A model generated the notes under the pieces. It did no database searches and had not been told where the DNA came from. It worked only from the letters and a program-made list of their open reading frames with translations. Both the position numbers and the translations under genes were made by a program. From IMG/VR virus record IMGVR_UViG_3300005086_000062, positions 1-20,210 of that record: a stretch of 20,210 nt of DNA; one strand, given 5' to 3'. Of this stretch, positions 48 through 14,688 are shown in pieces. The stretch comes from a virus. Position 1 is the first letter of the stretch; every line of letters starts with the position of its first letter.

Positions 48-1088
48 TTAATCGTCCTTTACCAGCCGCTTAAACACCACACTACCCAGCACCCGCCGGC
101 GGATGGTTTCGCTGTCCGCGTGGTTCGCATGAGCCACCCACGAGGCGATGCGCTGGCGGATCTCCGCCGGGGCGATCAGACCCCTGGCATACTGCCACTC
201 CATCTCCCGCATACGGCGCTTCATCCGCCGCACCGAGTCCTTGCGCAGTAGGCGCTTGTGGGGCCATATCCGGTAGCCCAGGAAGTTCACGCCCCGACTG
301 GCCGGCAGCACGCTGGCCTTGCTGAAGCGCATGCCCATGGTGGCCAGCTTGTCGTCGAACGCCTGGCGCAGCTCCAGGGCTTCCTCTTTGGTCCGCACCA
401 GCACCACCATGTCGTCCATATAGCGGGCATAGCGGCGCAGCCGCAGGTCACGCTTGGCCCACTGGTCGATGCGATTGCCCACCAGGTTGGCGATCCACTG
501 GCTGGTCAGGTTGCCCACGGGAATGCCTACGGGGTCCGGGTCCGCCGGGTCGGCGGTGCTGTCGATGACGGCGTCCAGCACCCGCAGGGTGGCCGTGCAG
601 CGGATGCGATCGCGGATCACCGCCTTGGCCAGGTCGTGGCTAATGGAGAAGAAATACTTGCTGACGTCCATTTTCAGCACCCAGGTGTCGCCGCTGGCGA
701 CCATGCCGCGCAGCCACTTCTCGACGCGATCCGCGCCCACGTGGGTGCCCTTGCCGACGCGGCAGGCGTAGTTGTCGAAGATCATGGAGCGGTCCCAGAT
801 GGGGCCGCAGATATTGCAGATGGCGTGCTGCGCCACCCGGTCACGGTAGGGCGCCGCCAGGATCTCGCGGCGCTTCGGCTCGTAGACCACAAAGGAGCGG
901 TAGCGGCCGGGGGCGTAGGTGCCCCACAGCAGCTCCATCTGGAGCGCGCCTAGCTCCTCCCATAGATTCGTCTCGAAGGCCGCCACCTCTCGGCGGTCGC
1001 GCTTTCCGCGCCTCGCCAGGCGGTGCGCCTCCATCAGATTGTCCCAGTCGATGATCTGCTCGATCAGGTTGTTTTGCTTGCGTGCCAT
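48..1088 (-). CDS. DGR reverse transcriptase
   Basis: This is an RNA-dependent DNA polymerase that, with Avd, copies the TR transcript into adenine-mutated cDNA. The product is 346 aa from the ATG at 1088. An in-frame TTG at 1103 would add five residues, but I prefer the ATG. Visible motifs in order are VLKMDVSKYFFSISHD (first catalytic Asp region, motif A), GIPVGNLTSQ (motif 4 with the SQ pair that marks DGR RTs, where retroviral and group II intron enzymes differ), YARYMDDMVVL (motif C with the two catalytic Asp) and VNFLGYRIWPHKRLLRK (thumb-side motif). There is no maturase or HNH domain, which argues against a group II intron. The gene ends 47 bases from the window edge with TAA. No clear Shine-Dalgarno precedes the ATG, and the GC-rich hairpin at 1112-1155 lies just upstream, so translation may be limited or coupled to RNA structure. 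Confidence 0.95.
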   Translation of the reverse strand: MARKQNNLIEQIIDWDNLMEAHRLARRGKRDRREVAAFETNLWEELGALQMELLWGTYAPGRYRSFVVYEPKRREILAAPYRDRVAQHAICNICGPIWDRSMIFDNYACRVGKGTHVGADRVEKWLRGMVASGDTWVLKMDVSKYFFSISHDLAKAVIRDRIRCTATLRVLDAVIDSTADPADPDPVGIPVGNLTSQWIANLVGNRIDQWAKRDLRLRRYARYMDDMVVLVRTKEEALELRQAFDDKLATMGMRFSKASVLPASRGVNFLGYRIWPHKRLLRKDSVRRMKRRMREMEWQYARGLIAPAEIRQRIASWVAHANHADSETIRRRVLGSVVFKRLVKDD

Positions 1089-1103
1089 TGGGTATCCATT
1101 CAA

Positions 1104-1259
1104 TTCAGGGCGCCCGGGCGGGGCTTTCGCTTGGCGCTATTCGCGCCGCCCGGGCTATCGTGTTCGGCCCGCCGGAGCGGGACCAGGATAGATCGGCTGA
1201 CCCCCTGTTAGGGATCTCAGGTGACAGCGACGCCGTCGCTGCCCTCTCTGGTATTGGTG
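1104..1259 (-). ncRNA. TR-RT spacer with three predicted hairpins (part of DGR RNA)
   Basis: This non-coding stretch lies between TR and RT. On the sense RNA it can form three hairpins. The first is 7 bp with a 3-nt loop at 1225-1231/1235-1241, starting 18 nt after the TR 3' end. The second, at 1166-1184, has stem CCCGC/GCGGG, a UCCG (UNCG-type) loop and a short extension across one bulged base. The third is a perfect 10-bp GC-only inverted repeat at 1112-1121/1146-1155, with an alternative inner stem at 1133-1137/1143-1147. In BPP-1 the RNA downstream of TR is needed for Avd-RT binding and cDNA priming, so a similar role is likely here. The folding is by eye, not computed. Confidence 0.6.
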
Positions 1260-1387
1260 GTCACAGACGCAGCGCAGCCCCACATTGCCATTCGCGTTCC
1301 ACGGATTCGCATTGGAGTTCAGACAGCGAGAGCCGCAGCGGACACCGTTGTCGAATTGGCCGCCGCCGATGAAGCTGCGCCAAGAGG
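1260..1387 (-). repeat. Template repeat (TR) of the DGR
   Basis: This 128-bp donor sequence matches VR at 115 of 128 positions. Read in the VR frame on the minus strand, it has seven AAY (Asn) codons, including the run NSNANPWNANGN, plus ATC, CAA, GAC and AGC codons. AAY codons give the widest amino-acid choice when A is randomised and can never become stops. TR lies between avd and RT, and I see no gene in it. Confidence 0.96.
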
Positions 1388-1415
1388 CGTCGAAACCCGA
1401 CCTACCCCTTAACGG

Positions 1416-1772
1416 TCAGGCGCCCAGTCGCTGGCGCCAGGCGCCGATCATGGCGCCGATCTCGGATAGCTGCTTGCTGGCATCTCCCACGCGCTTGATG
1501 CCCAGCAGCTTGCGTTCTGCTGCATGGCGCAGCAGGGCGTGAAGGTATCGGACCTGTTCATCTGCGCGGTAAACCTTGCTTTTCTGGTTGCTCATGGCCG
1601 CCTCGATCAGGCGCCGCACCAGCTCCCACAGCTCGTCCTCTAGCCGGATGGCGTAGCGGTAGCGCTGGTGTTTCGGGATCTTGTCGATGTGCGGCGCCAG
1701 GTCGATGATCAGCCGCTCGGCCTTGTTGACGATAACCAGACCCCGCTGTCGCGGGGCCTTTTCAGGGGTCAT
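1416..1772 (-). CDS. avd: DGR accessory variability determinant (Avd)
   Basis: Avd is the essential small partner of DGR reverse transcriptases. It forms a basic pentameric four-helix-bundle barrel that binds the RT and the TR RNA. The product here is 118 aa, about the usual size, all-helical in appearance and strongly basic, with an IPKHQRYRYAIRLEDELWEL helix and a basic C-terminal helix ending GAWRQRLGA. The call rests on family style and position between VR and TR. I chose the ATG at 1772, two bases past the target-gene stop. A GTG at 1778 would overlap that stop (GTGA) and add two residues. No clear Shine-Dalgarno is visible, so translational coupling to the target gene is likely. The first codons contain the hairpin at 1741-1756. 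Confidence 0.88.
   Translation of the reverse strand: MTPEKAPRQRGLVIVNKAERLIIDLAPHIDKIPKHQRYRYAIRLEDELWELVRRLIEAAMSNQKSKVYRADEQVRYLHALLRHAAERKLLGIKRVGDASKQLSEIGAMIGAWRQRLGA
1741..1756 (-). other. VR-proximal hairpin/cruciform with GACA tetraloop
   Basis: This is a perfect 6-bp GC stem (CCCCGC/GCGGGG) with, on the sense strand, the loop GACA. It starts 27 bases downstream of the VR end. Known DGR targets often carry a GC-rich hairpin with a GRNA-type tetraloop just after VR, and it increases retrohoming. GACA fits that pattern. It lies inside the start of avd and has no T-run, so it is not a terminator. Confidence 0.7.
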
Positions 1773-1774
1773 GG

Positions 1775-2845
1775 TCACAGGGCGTCACAGACGCAGCGCA
1801 GCCCCACATCGCCAAGCGCGCCCCACGGACCCGCAATGGAGATCAGACAGCGAGAGCCGCAGCGGACACCGTAGGCGAATGGGCCGCCGCCGACGAAGCT
1901 GCGCCAAGAGGACGCATCGCCCGCCCCGTAGACGTAGGTGTAAGCCTGCCCGCGCGCAAAGGCGGCATCCTTGCCCACGTCCACAATGCCCGCGGACCAG
2001 GCAGCGCGGTTTTCCAGGCCCAGGTCGTGGTGGTCGTCCAGCCACTCCCACAGGTTCCCGGCTGCGTCCACCACGTTGAACATGGAGACCGCCTTGGCCA
2101 CCGCGCCGGTGTTGGTCGGCCCGGTGTTGGTGGTCGCGCTCCAGGCGGTGTCGTTGTTGCCGTCGTTGCCCTGGGGGGCGCCCTCGGCGTAGGTCAGGAA
2201 CTCCTCGGCGGACGGCAGCCGCTTGCCGGCATTGCGGGCCAGCAGGTGGAAGTCCACACGCGCGTAGATGTCGTCCTTGATCGGCGGCACGCCGTAGCGG
2301 CTCACCGGGATGTTCTCCGGCCAGGTGCCGATGCCTTCGCTCGCCAGGTAGATGTCCACCCACAGCTTGCCCGGGATCACCTCCACCATGCCGGTGGGGT
2401 CGCAGGTGGGGCGGTGCTGCAGGTCCCACACGCTGTTGGGCACGATCTGCACCGCCGGCGCGTAGGCCGTGTCGTAGCGGTTGGCCACCGGGCGCACGCG
2501 GCCGTAGTGGAAACCGCCGATCTTGCGGCTGTTGGCGCTGGTGTAGCCGCCCGGCACGGTGATGTTGGTGCTGGCGATCAGGCCGGCGCGGCCGTCGTCG
2601 CTCTGCACCGCGTACAGGTACACGTCGTCACCCAGAGCCAGCGCGTCCAGCGAGCCGTCCTGATTGGCCACGGCGGTCGGGTCCCAGTCGGTCACCGCCT
2701 CCAGCACGTAGCCCTTGCCGTTGCCGCCGATGTTCAGGATGCCCTCGGGGAAGTCCAGGCGCATGGCGCCGGACGCCTCGATCGACCCCATCAGCTCGAA
2801 GTGTCCCGCCCCCTGGGCGGGGATTGCATACGTCCGCTGGACCAT
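1775..2845 (-). CDS. DGR target protein: FGE/C-type-lectin-fold variable receptor-binding protein (Mtd-like)
   Basis: This is the likely receptor-binding tip protein whose C-terminus is diversified. It is 356 aa. The ATG at 2845 follows GGAGG and overlaps the upstream stop (TGATG). Residues about 1-150 are beta-rich with no family I can name. From about 150 it resembles formylglycine-generating-enzyme-type C-type lectin domains: KRLPSAEEF, DAAGNLWEWLDD and the terminal GLRCVCD. VR covers residues about 312-354. Relative to TR, ten residues differ: V318 (TR Ile), P322 (Gln), A324 (Asp), Y325, I335, I337, G339, G342, L344 and D346 (all Asn in TR). The fixed residues between them (RCGSRC, PW, GLRC) would be the scaffold. 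FGE catalytic activity is not expected in this DGR family. Position after gp48 suggests a tail-fibre tip role by inference. Confidence 0.92.
   Translation of the reverse strand: MVQRTYAIPAQGAGHFELMGSIEASGAMRLDFPEGILNIGGNGKGYVLEAVTDWDPTAVANQDGSLDALALGDDVYLYAVQSDDGRAGLIASTNITVPGGYTSANSRKIGGFHYGRVRPVANRYDTAYAPAVQIVPNSVWDLQHRPTCDPTGMVEVIPGKLWVDIYLASEGIGTWPENIPVSRYGVPPIKDDIYARVDFHLLARNAGKRLPSAEEFLTYAEGAPQGNDGNNDTAWSATTNTGPTNTGAVAKAVSMFNVVDAAGNLWEWLDDHHDLGLENRAAWSAGIVDVGKDAAFARGQAYTYVYGAGDASSWRSFVGGGPFAYGVRCGSRCLISIAGPWGALGDVGLRCVCDAL
1784..1911 (-). repeat. Variable repeat (VR) with 3' IMH-like segment
   Basis: This 128-bp recipient region ends in the last codons of the target gene. The substituted plus-strand positions are 1810, 1815, 1816, 1821, 1822, 1830, 1831, 1836, 1842, 1873, 1875, 1881 and 1894. 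Each corresponds to a TR adenine on the sense strand. Seven of the 20 TR adenines are unchanged. The 26 bases at 1784-1809 are identical to TR and GC-rich, as expected for the initiation-of-mutagenic-homing (IMH) segment that fixes the 3' boundary. Confidence 0.96.
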
Positions 2846-3195
2846 CAGACAGCCTCCAGATCAGTGATTGCTTGTTCGACTTCCTGCACCGTGAAGCCCA
2901 GCCGGAAGATCTCCGCCTGCGGGCTCTCGATGCGCTTCATCTGCACGCGCCGGGTCTCGCCGGTTTCCTCGTCCTCCACGTTCAGCACGCGGTAGTCCGG
3001 CATATCGCCGTCCGGGCTCTCGGCCTCGGCCAGCTCCCGGTCGTGCACGTAGGTGAAGCGCCCGGACAGCAGGCCCTCAAAGTGCCGCTTGAGCGTGGCC
3101 ACGCCCTGCGGGCGGATCTCGCCCTGGGTGGCCAGGCCCTGCAGCAGGTCATAATCGGCCCGCGTGCGCAGGCCATAGCGGGGTACTCCCTGCAT
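2845..3195 (-). CDS. Unrecognised phage protein between fibre-like gene and DGR target
   Basis: This 116-aa acidic protein is not one I recognise. The ATG at 3195 directly abuts the TAA of the gene before it, and its own TGA overlaps the target-gene ATG (TGATG). It is therefore tightly coupled to the target. The sequence is soluble-looking, with a mid-protein segment YRVLNVEDEETGETRRVQMK that may be a beta-hairpin, and a helical C-terminus (FTVQEVEQAITDLEAV). There is no signal peptide or membrane segment. Given the position, it could be an adaptor or chaperone joining the variable protein to the tail, or part of the fibre. This is inference only. Confidence 0.8.
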   Translation of the reverse strand: MQGVPRYGLRTRADYDLLQGLATQGEIRPQGVATLKRHFEGLLSGRFTYVHDRELAEAESPDGDMPDYRVLNVEDEETGETRRVQMKRIESPQAEIFRLGFTVQEVEQAITDLEAV

Positions 3196-3465
3196 TTAGA
3201 CTTCCTCCACAGTAATGACCGCCACACCGTCCACGCGGCTGACCGCGCGGCGATCGGCGATCGCGTTGATAGCCGCTGCCAGCTGCGTCTCGTCCTGCAG
3301 GTCGGCGTTAATGCCGGCATCCGCCAGAACGTTCAGCAGCTCGCGCTGCAGCATGTTGAAATACGCGGCCAGCATGGGCGTCGCTCGGACGTTGCTGGCC
3401 GGGTCCCCGTTTCTCCACTCACCCTCGGACGTGGTCCGCTCGGTGAAGGCGCCTACCTTCTCCAT
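3196..3465 (-). CDS. Short tail-fibre-like protein
   Basis: This 89-aa protein starts at the ATG at 3465, with GGAGG about 6 bases upstream. The frame is open further back, but that extension lies in the end of the gp48-like gene. The segment FNMLQRELLNVLADAGINAD followed by DETQLAAAINAI is like the N-terminal part of phage and R-pyocin tail fibres, which carry a similar helix followed by D-x-TQL-x-x-AI. Here only that segment exists, with no shaft or tip. It may be the piece that docks the variable protein on the baseplate. The fibre resemblance is from memory of the family pattern. Confidence 0.75.
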   Translation of the reverse strand: MEKVGAFTERTTSEGEWRNGDPASNVRATPMLAAYFNMLQRELLNVLADAGINADLQDETQLAAAINAIADRRAVSRVDGVAVITVEEV

Positions 3466-3467
3466 CG

Positions 3468-4094
3468 TTAAGCCTCCTGATAGCCCACATTCAAAATCAG
3501 CCAGGACGGCGCGGCTTCGTGCAGTGCGCACTCCACCAGCTGATCGCCCCAGCTCCGCAGCGGGTCGCCAATCTCCGACGCGCCGATCTCAGCCACGCGC
3601 ACCACGCCATCCGGCACCAGCACGTCCCAGGCCCACAGCCAGTCCTCGCCGTTCATCGGGTCGCCGATCTCGGCACCCCTCGGCCCGGCCCCGGCGGCCA
3701 GCTCCATGGTCGCCTCCTGGTGCTCGATGATCTGCGCACCCTCGTAGCCCAGCCCCTCGGCCAGGTCGATATAGTCCTGCTTGCGCATGCCGCCCCGGCC
3801 GACGATCCGGCCGATCAGCGCCACGCGGCGATCGGCCAGGCTCTGCTCGGTCGGCGCGCACTCGCTGGGCAGGCTGTAACTGCTCTCCCACTCAGGGAAC
3901 AGCGCATCCGCCTGGCGCGGGTCCGCCTCGGCCAGCAGCTCCAGGGCGCGGGCATCCACCCGGGCGAACTCCTGGGCGCTGCCATCCAGCAGCCGCTGCA
4001 GGTTGCTCTCCGGCTCGGTCGGCCAGACCATCCCCGGCGGCAGCAGGCTGAAAAGCAGCCCGCGATAGTCAGCACCCGTCAGCCCTGCACCCAT
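3468..4094 (-). CDS. Mu gp48-like baseplate/tail protein (YmfQ / DUF2313 family)
   Basis: This 208-aa protein is of the gp48/YmfQ family, which sits at the baseplate periphery and in Mu precedes the tail-fibre genes. The N-terminus (YRGLLFSLLPPGMVW, then LQRLLDGSAQEFARVDARA) is the usual family opening, and RVALIGRIVGRGGMRKQDYI with EGLGYEGAQIIEH follows the family layout. The ATG at 4094 has GGGAGG upstream and overlaps the gp47 end by 16 bases. The length is normal for the family. Confidence 0.9.
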   Translation of the reverse strand: MGAGLTGADYRGLLFSLLPPGMVWPTEPESNLQRLLDGSAQEFARVDARALELLAEADPRQADALFPEWESSYSLPSECAPTEQSLADRRVALIGRIVGRGGMRKQDYIDLAEGLGYEGAQIIEHQEATMELAAGAGPRGAEIGDPMNGEDWLWAWDVLVPDGVVRVAEIGASEIGDPLRSWGDQLVECALHEAAPSWLILNVGYQEA

Positions 4095-5131
4095 GTCACG
4101 CCTCCCCAGATCGGCAGCACGCCCGTGGCGTGGGTCACGTCAGCAACGGGCGACTGCAGGTCGTAGTCCTCCACACCGGGCGCCAGACTGATCGCCGCGC
4201 GGATGCGGGAAATCAGCAGGGTGCCGCCCGGCTCACCCTCACGCTCCACCAGGCCCGCCAGGGCCTGGGCGGCGGCGCTGCGCACCTCCTCGGTGTCCGG
4301 CGTGACGATCAGCTCCGGCGCGAACGCCTGGGTATCCGGCGCCACCACGTACACCTGGGCCTGCACGTTCTTGCGCTCCTCGATGTAGGCCAGCACCGCG
4401 TCCAGCAGCTGCTGCGAGGGCAGCGGGCCGTCGCTGGCATCGTCCGCCATGATCCGCAGCACCACGGAGCCCGGCCCCATGCCCAGCGGGTCCTCCCAGG
4501 CCCGGGTCACGCCCGGCACCTCCAGCGCCCAGCCTTCCCAGTCGCCCTGGGCGCCGCCACGCGGCACCCGCGCCCGGCGCAGCAGGATGCGATCGCGCCA
4601 GCTGCTGTGCGTCTCCAGATCGGCACCGCCGCGCAGCCCCTCGGCACCCACCACGGCCGCCGCCGAAACGCCCGGCAGCGGCGACACCAGGCGCAGCTCC
4701 GCGCCGGCGTCCTGGTCACCGGCCAGGCCGGCCTCCAGCGCCTCCACGGCGGCCGTGGCCGTGCCGGCGGCGATCACCGCCTCCTCGGTGGTCTCGTACT
4801 CCTGGCCATCCAACTGCAGCCGCGTGCCGGTGACAATCACCGCGTCGTCGCTGCCCTCGAAGGTCACCTCGCCGGTGGCCTTGGCCGCCTGGCGGCGTGG
4901 CACGCCGGCGCTGTGCAAATGCAGCAGCTCGTCGTCGCAGGTCTCCGGGAACAGCTGGCGCTCCAGCCACTGCAGATACCCATACAGGCCGTGCGTTACC
5001 CCGGCCTGGCTCGTGGCCAGGGCCTTGGTCAGGCGCGTGGCCAGCGCCGCCTGCGCACCCGGCAGCCGCGACAGCAGGTCCTGGTCGACCCGCGTCATCA
5101 GCTCCGGTAATGAAGGCCGTTTAAACGCCAT
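4079..5131 (-). CDS. Baseplate J family protein (Mu gp47-like)
   Basis: This 350-aa baseplate wedge protein is of the baseplate J/gp47 family. It opens with FKRPSLPELMTRVDQDLLSR, has a central PRRQAAKATGEVTFEGSDDA segment typical of the family, and ends with ISLAPGVEDYDLQSPVADVT before the short C-terminus. The ATG at 5131 is preceded by GGAGGGG. It sits between gp46-like and gp48-like genes, as in Mu. Confidence 0.95.
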   Translation of the reverse strand: MAFKRPSLPELMTRVDQDLLSRLPGAQAALATRLTKALATSQAGVTHGLYGYLQWLERQLFPETCDDELLHLHSAGVPRRQAAKATGEVTFEGSDDAVIVTGTRLQLDGQEYETTEEAVIAAGTATAAVEALEAGLAGDQDAGAELRLVSPLPGVSAAAVVGAEGLRGGADLETHSSWRDRILLRRARVPRGGAQGDWEGWALEVPGVTRAWEDPLGMGPGSVVLRIMADDASDGPLPSQQLLDAVLAYIEERKNVQAQVYVVAPDTQAFAPELIVTPDTEEVRSAAAQALAGLVEREGEPGGTLLISRIRAAISLAPGVEDYDLQSPVADVTHATGVLPIWGGVTWVQG

Positions 5132-5142
5132 TTACCCCTCCG

Positions 5143-5586
5143 TTATGCAGCGTTTCGCCACACATAGTCGTATTGCCGTTCCAGCACCGCGCGATCGCCG
5201 CGCCGGATCACCACCCGCAGGCCCAGCGTGTCGCGGCGCATGTGATACGCCTCAACCTCCACCGCCTCGGCCACTTCGTCCTCCACCAGCCAGGCCAGCG
5301 CCTCCTCGGCGTACACCTGGGCGCGGCGCAGCACCTCGTCCTGTTCCTTCTCACGATGCAGCAGCCACAGCCGGGAGCCGTGCGGGCGGTCGTTATAGGC
5401 GTCTGCCCAGTAGCCCCGACGGTCGCTGGTGCCGTCCGGCAGCCGGTCCTCCTCCAGGGCGCGGCGGTCGGTGAACAGCGACAGGATCACCGCCGTCTCC
5501 AGGCCCTCGTCGGTCGCCAGGTCGCCGCCCTCGATGTCCAGGTCGAAGCGCTTGGCGCCCGGGTCGAATCGCAATGCAATGTCCAT
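5143..5586 (-). CDS. Mu gp46-like baseplate protein
   Basis: This 147-aa protein of the phage gp46 family is a baseplate component related in position to T4 gp25-type proteins. Typical features are DLATDEGLETAVILSLFTDRRA, the GYWADAY motif and an EEALAWLVEDEVAE helix followed by a beta-rich end. The ATG at 5586 overlaps the spike-gene stop (TGATG). Confidence 0.93.
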   Translation of the reverse strand: MDIALRFDPGAKRFDLDIEGGDLATDEGLETAVILSLFTDRRALEEDRLPDGTSDRRGYWADAYNDRPHGSRLWLLHREKEQDEVLRRAQVYAEEALAWLVEDEVAEAVEVEAYHMRRDTLGLRVVIRRGDRAVLERQYDYVWRNAA

Positions 5587-8750: not shown

Positions 8751-10700
8751 TCACGGCGCCACCCCCAGCACTCCAGCATCCACATCGAAGTCCATGCCCC
8801 CGTTGCGGCGCGCTTCCGCCACGCGGGGGCGCCCCTCGGAATCCACCACGATCCGCAGTTCGCCGCCCACCTCGGCCCGCGCCGGGCCGGGCATCGCGCC
8901 CCGGCGGTTGTCCGCCACCGGCGCGCCGGTGGGCATGGGTGCCTCCATGCCGCCGATGCCCAGGCGATCCTTCACCCAGTCCGGCATCCACTCGATCAGC
9001 CCGGTGATGCGCTCCGATAGCCAGCCGGTCAGCTGCGACCACTGGGCGCTGATCCCGTCCCACAGGCCACCGATCCACTCCTGGCCCAGCTCGGTCAGCG
9101 GGCGTGCGCCGAACAGCTCGAACACCGCGTCGATGCCCTTTAGCAGCAGCGCGGCCGGATTGAACGACAGCAGGCCCTTGGCCACCTGGCCGATGCCCTG
9201 GCTGAAATAGCCGGCGACGCCATCCCACAGCCCGCCAAACCACTCGGCGATACCGTCCCAGTGCCGGTAGATCAGCCCCGCCGGCGTCCAAGCCAGCAGG
9301 TCGCCCGCGATCTCGCCGGCGCCACGGCTGAAAAAGTCCTTCACGCCCTGCCACAGATTGCCGAACCACTCGGCAATGCCGTCCCAGTTGCGGTAGATCA
9401 GGTACACGGCACCGGCCACGGCCGCCACGCCGGTAATGATCCAGCCGATCGGGGTGGTCAGCAGGGCGAGCGACAGGGCGCGGATGCCGGCAATAGCAGC
9501 CGGCACCGCTCGGGCCACCAGCCCCATCAGGCCACGCGAAAGAGAAACCAGGGACGTAACAGCTAGAGCGACGCCGCGCACCGCGAATGAAACCAAGCTG
9601 CCGGAAGCGGCGACCACCCACCTGATAAAGGCCGGGCCATTCCTGGCGACGAACAGCCCAGCTTGAACCGACAGCCGCACGATTGATGCGCCAGCTACAG
9701 CGAGGGAGACCAGGAAGCGGCCGGCGATAAGCGCCGCAACCAGGGCAATCAGATTACCAAAGCCGCCCACTTCACCAGCGGCCCAGCTCACCGCCGCGCC
9801 CACCATCTGCATGCCACGCCACACGTCGCGGATGCCGTCCACGATGTCGCTGGCCACCGCCTCGCGGTTAGCCTGACCCAGGGCGCCCATGCGGCCGATC
9901 CACTCATTGATGGCCGGCAGCAGCTCGCCCACCACCGACGCCTGGATGCCGAACAGCACCGTGCGCAGGTCGCCCATCTGGCGGGTGTACTCGCGGCTGT
10001 TCTCGATCTCCTCCTCGGTCAGGATCGCGCCACGGTCCCGGCCGGCCTGCATCATCCGCTCGATCTCCTCGCGGGTGGCGCCCAGCATCTCCACCATCTG
10101 CTCCGCGCCCTGGCCGCCGAAGATCTCGTCCAGCACCCGCTGGCGGGCGGCGTCGTTCTCCAGGCTGCCCAGGCGCGAACGCACCAGGTCGAACATGGCG
10201 GCAGTGTCGCCGCCGGTCTTGCGCAGGTCGTCGATGTTGATGCCCAGGCGCCCGAATGCCTCGGCAGCCGGGCCGCCGGCGGTCATCACGAACTCGTCGG
10301 CGCGCAGGCTCAGCTCCTTCAGGCCGTCCACCAGGGCGTCGTTCTGCACGCCGAACTGTTTGCCGACGTACTGCCACTCCTGCAGCCAGGTGGTACCCAC
10401 GCCCACGCGCTCGGCGGCGTTCTTCACCTCGTTGCCCAGGTCGGTCACCCCCGACACCAGGCGTTCGGTGCCCCACACCGCGCCGGCGGTGATACCCCCC
10501 ATCCACAGCAGGCGCTGGCCCAGTCCCTGGGCGCGCTCCACCACCGCGCCCAGGGACTGGCTCACCCGGCGGCCGGAGGCGGCCAGGCGGTCCAGCCCGG
10601 CGCGCTGCGACAGGCCGGAGAGCGAGCGCTGGATACGACGAACCGGGCGGGTCACCCGGTCCACCAGCTCCATGACAACACTGGTCACCATGTTAGCCAT
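8751..10700 (-). CDS. Tail tape measure protein
   Basis: This 649-aa protein sets tail length and is threaded through the tube. The N-terminal half is helical, with TP901-type tape-measure character (GVGTTWLQEWQYVGKQFG, LGINIDDLRKTGGDTAAMFD). A central hydrophobic region (about 305-430) holds several possible membrane helices. Then comes a 42-aa tandem repeat built on NWDGIAEWFGNLW (about 437-446) and HWDGIAEWFGGLW (about 479-488), with a weaker third copy (WIGGLWDGISAQW). The ATG at 10700 overlaps the chaperone -1 frame by 8 bases. Confidence 0.94.
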   Translation of the reverse strand: MANMVTSVVMELVDRVTRPVRRIQRSLSGLSQRAGLDRLAASGRRVSQSLGAVVERAQGLGQRLLWMGGITAGAVWGTERLVSGVTDLGNEVKNAAERVGVGTTWLQEWQYVGKQFGVQNDALVDGLKELSLRADEFVMTAGGPAAEAFGRLGINIDDLRKTGGDTAAMFDLVRSRLGSLENDAARQRVLDEIFGGQGAEQMVEMLGATREEIERMMQAGRDRGAILTEEEIENSREYTRQMGDLRTVLFGIQASVVGELLPAINEWIGRMGALGQANREAVASDIVDGIRDVWRGMQMVGAAVSWAAGEVGGFGNLIALVAALIAGRFLVSLAVAGASIVRLSVQAGLFVARNGPAFIRWVVAASGSLVSFAVRGVALAVTSLVSLSRGLMGLVARAVPAAIAGIRALSLALLTTPIGWIITGVAAVAGAVYLIYRNWDGIAEWFGNLWQGVKDFFSRGAGEIAGDLLAWTPAGLIYRHWDGIAEWFGGLWDGVAGYFSQGIGQVAKGLLSFNPAALLLKGIDAVFELFGARPLTELGQEWIGGLWDGISAQWSQLTGWLSERITGLIEWMPDWVKDRLGIGGMEAPMPTGAPVADNRRGAMPGPARAEVGGELRIVVDSEGRPRVAEARRNGGMDFDVDAGVLGVAP

Positions 10701-14255: not shown

Positions 14256-14669
14256 TTACCCCTTGGCCTTGGTGGTGGACTTGCTGGCCGCCTTGGGCTT
14301 GGCTTCCTGGTCTGCCTTCGCTTTGGCTTCTTCCTCGGCCTTCGCCTTGGCTTCCTGGTCCGCCTTCTCCTGGGCTTCTCGCTCGGCCTGCTCCTGGGCC
14401 TCCTTCTCGGCCTGGGCTTTGGCTTCCTCGTCAGCCTTCGCCTGGGCTTCCTTCTCGGCCTGGGCCTCCGCCTCGGCCTTCGCTTTGGCTTCCGCCTCCG
14501 CTTCTGCCTGGGCGTCGTCCTCGGATGTCTCGCGCACATCGCGGATCACACCCTTGCGGGCCAGGCGGTCGATCTCCTCGGCGTCCTGCTCGACGTCCAG
14601 CTCCACCTCGGCGGGCGGCTTGTGCGTCTTGCCGTTGCGGCGCAGCGGCTCGGTCACTGGAAATTTCAT
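14256..14669 (-). CDS. DUF7210-like small protein with Ala/Glu/Lys repeat tail
   Basis: This 137-aa protein starts at the ATG at 14669, preceded by GAGG. A GTG at 14675 is possible. The first 50 residues (MKFPVTEPLRRNGKTHKPPA ... IDRLARKGVIRDV) fit a small phage domain found next to capsid genes. Residues about 55-135 are an extended helix of eight-residue repeats of the form EAxxxAxx (EAQAKADE, EAKAQAEK, EAQEQAER, EAQEKADQ, EAKAKAEE, EAKAKADQ). These are 24-bp DNA repeats and resemble TolA-type coiled repeats. The function is unknown. The Arg-rich frame antisense or offset to it is a shadow. Confidence 0.82.
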   Translation of the reverse strand: MKFPVTEPLRRNGKTHKPPAEVELDVEQDAEEIDRLARKGVIRDVRETSEDDAQAEAEAEAKAKAEAEAQAEKEAQAKADEEAKAQAEKEAQEQAEREAQEKADQEAKAKAEEEAKAKADQEAKPKAASKSTTKAKG

Positions 14670-14688
14670 GCTCACCTCGTCATGGTTG

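Follow-up and report, generated by a model that had tools for sequence, protein, structure and literature searches.

The window analysed here is the whole of a fragmentary virus record of 20.2 kb, and all coordinates refer to it. It carries a reverse transcriptase (RT) gene and, nearby, two copies of a 128-nt repeat that disagree only at adenines of one copy. Is this a diversity-generating retroelement (DGR) that has rewritten one of the virus's own proteins, and could it still be doing so? The cassette is a complete BPP-1-type DGR, a known kind of system, and its parts follow one another on the sense strand in the order target gene, avd, template repeat (TR), spacer RNA and RT, with the variable repeat (VR) at the end of the target gene:

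1775-2845, minus strand: target (variable protein) gene, 356 aa; Mtd homologue with a C-terminal C-type-lectin region
1784-1911, minus strand: VR, at the 3′ end of the target gene; 13 mismatches to the TR, all at TR adenines
1738-1759, minus strand: hairpin AGGCCCCGC-GACA-GCGGGGTCT, with a 9-bp stem (one G-T pair) and a GRNA loop
1416-1772, minus strand: avd (accessory variability determinant), 118 aa
1260-1387, minus strand: TR, with 20 adenines, defined by alignment of the repeat pair
1111-1249, minus strand: TR-RT spacer RNA, with four main stem-loops and a 2-bp inner helix
48-1085, minus strand: DGR reverse transcriptase, 345 aa, with YMDD and LTSQ motifs

The sequence-only reading of this DNA had reported a gap-free TR/VR pair with 13 differences confined to the 20 TR adenines, and recomputation on the minus (sense) strand (1387-1260 against 1911-1784) gave identical counts. 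The 128-nt alignment contains no gaps and 13 mismatches (six A>G, four A>T and three A>C). As the TR is composed of 20 A, 41 G, 39 C and 28 T, with no mismatch at a non-A base, the probability that 13 of 13 mismatches would fall on A is 3.7e-13 (hypergeometric). A repeat search of the window recovered the same pair independently (128 nt, 90 %), and no VR besides 1784-1911 was found in the 20.2-kb record. Beyond either end of the repeats, homology between the TR and VR breaks off abruptly; their final 24 nt are identical, and divergence begins only beyond them. Because 19 of the 20 TR adenines fall on first or second codon positions in the VR frame, nearly any mutagenic event is able to change an amino acid.

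A single genome cannot separate past from present activity, and the same pattern could belong to a genuine DGR that is now silent, its VR recording past events and its RT or a cis element having recently lost function. The condition of the parts argues against such a loss, as the RT, Avd, hairpin and spacer are all conserved. The RT, described in the earlier reading as an intact enzyme of the YMDD/SQ type accompanied by Avd, indeed retains the YMDD and LTSQ motifs, which align with those of BPP-1 Brt (42 % identity), and its catalytic site shows no inactivation. It matches RVT_1 (1.2e-14), phrog_1423 (1.7e-123) and PDB 8ub7 (1.4e-67); the last, its top match among solved structures, is an entry in which a DGR reverse transcriptase was deposited together with Avd. 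The accessory protein itself scores above the cut-off of the Pfam family bAvd (PF22296, 2.3e-19), and also matches phrog_3206 and PDB 4dwl (Bbp7). Both proteins are under purifying selection: against eight relatives, dN/dS was 0.06-0.27 for the RT (0.06 against the closest relative) and 0-0.23 for Avd, compared with 0.14-0.30 for the body of the target and 0.49-1.0 for the VR.

The cis-acting elements, which go beyond what the earlier reading named, are likewise in place. The hairpin at 1738-1759 lies 24 nt past the VR, within the first codons of avd, and no other GRNA hairpin with a stem of at least 8 bp occurs on the window's sense strand. In BPP-1, homing requires a downstream structure of this kind, and the hairpins of phage DGRs have GC-rich stems of 7-10 bp, GRNA loops and a distance of 4-34 bp (Guo et al. 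2011, PMC3240598), a description that the present hairpin fits. The GRNA loop is kept in all 18 aligned sequences, and the hairpin of one relative, L067, has changed on both sides of the stem with pairing retained.

In the spacer RNA, 97.5 % of cells were paired across 17 relatives, and 35 cells had changed on both sides of a pair, against a shuffle mean of 9.7 and at most 7 in slid controls. The Rfam model RF03022 (Phage_DGR) matched the spacer at 1114-1244, over its full length and in the correct place and strand, with a score of 23.3 bits against a gathering cut-off of 50, which was reached by none of 12 relatives and by BPP-1 at 104.7. A full-length match in the exact place that stays below the cut-off marks the spacer as a probable diverged homologue of the Phage_DGR RNA and not a member by Rfam's rule; the motifs GGUCAGC and (G)AAUAGCG...GCGAAA are common to both. 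A covariance model built from the clade, R1, found no match in BPP-1, phiARM81mr or ACA1 at E values up to 1, so the clade RNA cannot be tied to BPP-1 by that route.

Relatives with RT identities of 72-97 % to that of the window allowed the adenine rule to be followed across lineages. Their TR/VR mismatches lie essentially all at TR adenines, and the VR is far from identical in all relatives: in 12 of them, the VR bases disagree at 8-15 positions out of 16-20 shared TR adenines. Non-adenine differences between TR and VR, which the sequence-only reading had named as potentially damaging if they proved as frequent as adenine ones, are nearly absent. At sites where both TRs agree and carry a non-adenine base, the VRs differed at no site in ten comparisons and at one in two. 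Where the TR of the window and that of a relative differ at non-adenine bases, each VR has the base of its own TR. Such TR changes were mirrored in the VR at 6/6 sites in L004, 5/5 in L009, 13/13 in L007, 14/14 in L011, 14/14 in L012 and 27/28 in phage YPCBV-1, and this mirroring means that the VR has been rewritten from the TR since the lineages split.

Two pairs of sister phages isolate the effect of the DGR, both of them relatives and not the exact phage of the window (Avd of L067 is 72 % identical, and the RT of L034 78 %). The contigs L067 and L068 come from two IMG datasets. Their TRs are identical and their VRs show 14 differences, all at TR adenines, with only three differences outside the VR in about 11.4 kb. 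Similarly, between Bordetella hinzii L034 and Achromobacter pulmonis L035, the RT shows 4 differences in 1044 bases, the TR 1 in 127 and the VR region 13 in 130, all 13 of the last at TR adenines. A hypervariable VR beside a stable TR is what close sisters display. The expectation that the TR stays fixed holds at this range and fails over longer times, as the TR drifts and the VR follows. Six pairs were identical over the compared stretch, are probably the same genomes and are hence uninformative for the VR (L032/L004, L007/L008, L011/L038, L012/L037, L014/L036 and L064/L034). Exact-pattern scans for a closer relative carrying the TR of the window matched only the contig of L004.

The adenine-only changes, the mirroring and the VR hypervariation of sister pairs bear out the claim of past mutagenic retrohoming: this DGR has been active. 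The further suggestion of the earlier reading, that activity probably continues, gains indirect support from near-identical sister phages that differ almost only in the VR, at TR adenines. Present activity of the window phage itself is likely, as a strong inference from these members of its family. With recent activity in the sister phages and an RT dN/dS of 0.06 against the closest relative, we regard a cassette that has fallen silent as improbable.

A duplicated segment that diverged by ordinary mutation and positive selection, or by gene conversion, with no reverse transcription, is a far poorer account. Conversion could in principle produce the mirroring between TR and VR, but it has no adenine rule, and changes limited to adenines, to one strand and to one copy (at the probability given above), with the same in every relative and a DGR-type RT and Avd adjoining, leave it virtually no probability; adenine specificity already refutes both versions in practice. 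The joining in one contig of a VR and a TR from different variants or genomes is just as negligible and was rejected, for although the record is fragmentary and the scaffold of L035 shows assemblers stumbling at the VR, the layout and spacing recur in isolate genomes and in an isolated phage.

We hold with high confidence that a Mu-like transposable phage uses a functional BPP-1-type DGR to diversify its receptor-binding tail protein. The identity of the diversified protein rests on homology to the major tropism determinant (Mtd) of BPP-1. The target matches Pfam mtd_2nd (9e-23) and, weakly, FGE-sulfatase. It also matches the tail protein family phrog_11262 and PDB chains of BPP-1 Mtd (1e-17; 5e-23 by profile), and the homology to Mtd extends over the second domain and the lectin region. 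By homology to the solved Mtd, the VR thus lies at the C-terminal end of a C-type-lectin protein. An AlphaFold model of the target had a mean pLDDT of 41.9 and its C-terminus was unusable. In the ungapped lectin tip, window codons 322, 324, 325, 335, 337, 342, 344 and 346 correspond to diversified Mtd codons 344, 346, 347, 357, 359, 364, 366 and 368, a pairing that is our own reading of the alignment register and codon lists. By analogy with Mtd, the target is expected to be a receptor-binding tail protein whose lectin face contacts the host receptor.

For the biochemistry and the effect on host range we infer from BPP-1 a model in which a transcript of the TR and the folded spacer would be bound by the RT and Avd. 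The RT would copy the bound transcript, misreading adenines, and the resulting cDNA would take the place of the VR in the 3′-terminal part of the Mtd-like gene. Just downstream, the GC-rich GRNA hairpin would mark the VR as the recipient, and the TR, which has no such hairpin, would be spared. The predicted outcome is a set of changed residues on the lectin face, the surface expected to contact the receptor of the host.

The order and parts of the cassette match those of the DGR of Bordetella phage BPP-1 (mtd-avd-TR-brt). Beyond the 42 % identical RT and a target homologous to Mtd, both systems have a GRNA hairpin past the VR, and the diversified codons largely align with those of Mtd. The window differs from BPP-1 in that its hairpin lies 24 nt from the VR inside avd, the last 24 nt of its TR and VR are the same, and its spacer RNA is diverged; BPP-1, in turn, lacks the Mu-like context. 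A closer counterpart is Chromohalobacter phage YPCBV-1 (OP380511), published as a Mu-like phage with bAvd and bRT (PMC9769972). Its gene order is as in the window; at the nucleotide level, 96 % of the first 6 kb aligns at 78 % identity, and the RT and target are 77 and 64 % identical. The VR and TR sequences of YPCBV-1 differ from those of the window, and its own two repeats differ only at TR adenines (14 of 22). The homologue of the Mtd-like target, which carries the VR, is ORF53 (CDS 1795-2844 of L053, OP380511.1), described in the publication as a SUMF1/EgtB/PvdO non-heme iron enzyme that might be an auxiliary metabolic gene (PMC9769972). That enzyme label is probably a misannotation of a DGR target.

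Outside the cassette, the window consists of a Mu-like late region, with Portal_Mu, Phage_Mu_Gp48, Baseplate_J, a major head protein and a tape measure. In relatives, the phage sequence ends 3′ of the RT at ...GCGCTACA or ...GCGTTACA and is followed by different DNA. This right end was seen near 7100 in L004, L005, L006, L007, L032 and L037, and at 4766 in L067 and L068. Even L004 and L032, with no difference in the phage sequence compared, have different flanking DNA, as do L067 and L068. Varying DNA past a shared end fits random insertion by transposition. By comparison with L005, the window (relevant stretch 1-47) stops about 16 nt short of the phage right end. Judged by its gene content and by the ends of its relatives, the virus is a Mu-like transposable phage of bacteria, with the DGR as its last module before the right end.

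More than 30,000 DGRs have been catalogued, including phage lineages that diversify attachment proteins, 50-75 % of these being recently active (Roux et al. 2021, PMC8144416). To these, our analysis adds a well-preserved example from a phage, together with natural sister pairs in which the effect of the element is isolated: phages near-identical over about 11 kb, from different samples, with different variable repeats. It also provides a covariation-supported structure for a template-RNA spacer that falls short of the cut-off of the Rfam DGR model. For YPCBV-1, a published phage, it indicates that a reported ‘metabolic’ gene is the DGR target. The additions are modest, and consist of the diverged spacer RNA with covariation support, the avd-embedded hairpin and the natural sister pairs. 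The hosts of the clade include Bordetella, Achromobacter, Pusillimonas, Halomonas, Halothiobacillus and Desulfobulbus, and the VR differences between the Bordetella and Achromobacter phages may possibly reflect host switching. A broader and more tentative proposal, which we think somewhat more apt to prove wrong than right, is that this clade employs a distinct DGR template-RNA subfamily and an avd-embedded hairpin to move between host genera by rewriting its Mtd-like protein.

Several further observations concern the organization of the module in relatives. Across 48-5131 of the window, L009 has an Avd that is 100 % identical at the protein level and shares the TR and the RT (9.6 % different in nucleotides), whereas the start of the target gene and the genes upstream are very different, a pattern suggestive of transfer of the DGR as a block from phage to phage. 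In L069 (1-1336), L070 (3001-3339) and L071 (3001-3343), avd is cut at residue 72 with the hairpin kept, and the cut gene is joined to a second copy of upstream tail genes, forming a rearranged DGR module. The second target gene of L069 stops prematurely, and after it comes a lectin fragment whose end reads NNNPWNVNSNAGLRAACDSL. The Achromobacter pulmonis scaffold L035 contains at 4820-5260 repeated segments linked by Ns; at least two VR alleles, distinguished at TR adenines, are present among them, which suggests either one culture with several VR variants or the presence of several prophage copies.

Elsewhere in the window, a 139-aa ORF between head genes (14256-14675, minus strand) contains a 24-nt repeat that encodes an Ala/Glu/Lys-rich stretch, probably a coiled coil. 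Within the tape measure gene, two adjacent 126-nt copies at 9147-9398 (minus strand) are 71 % alike.
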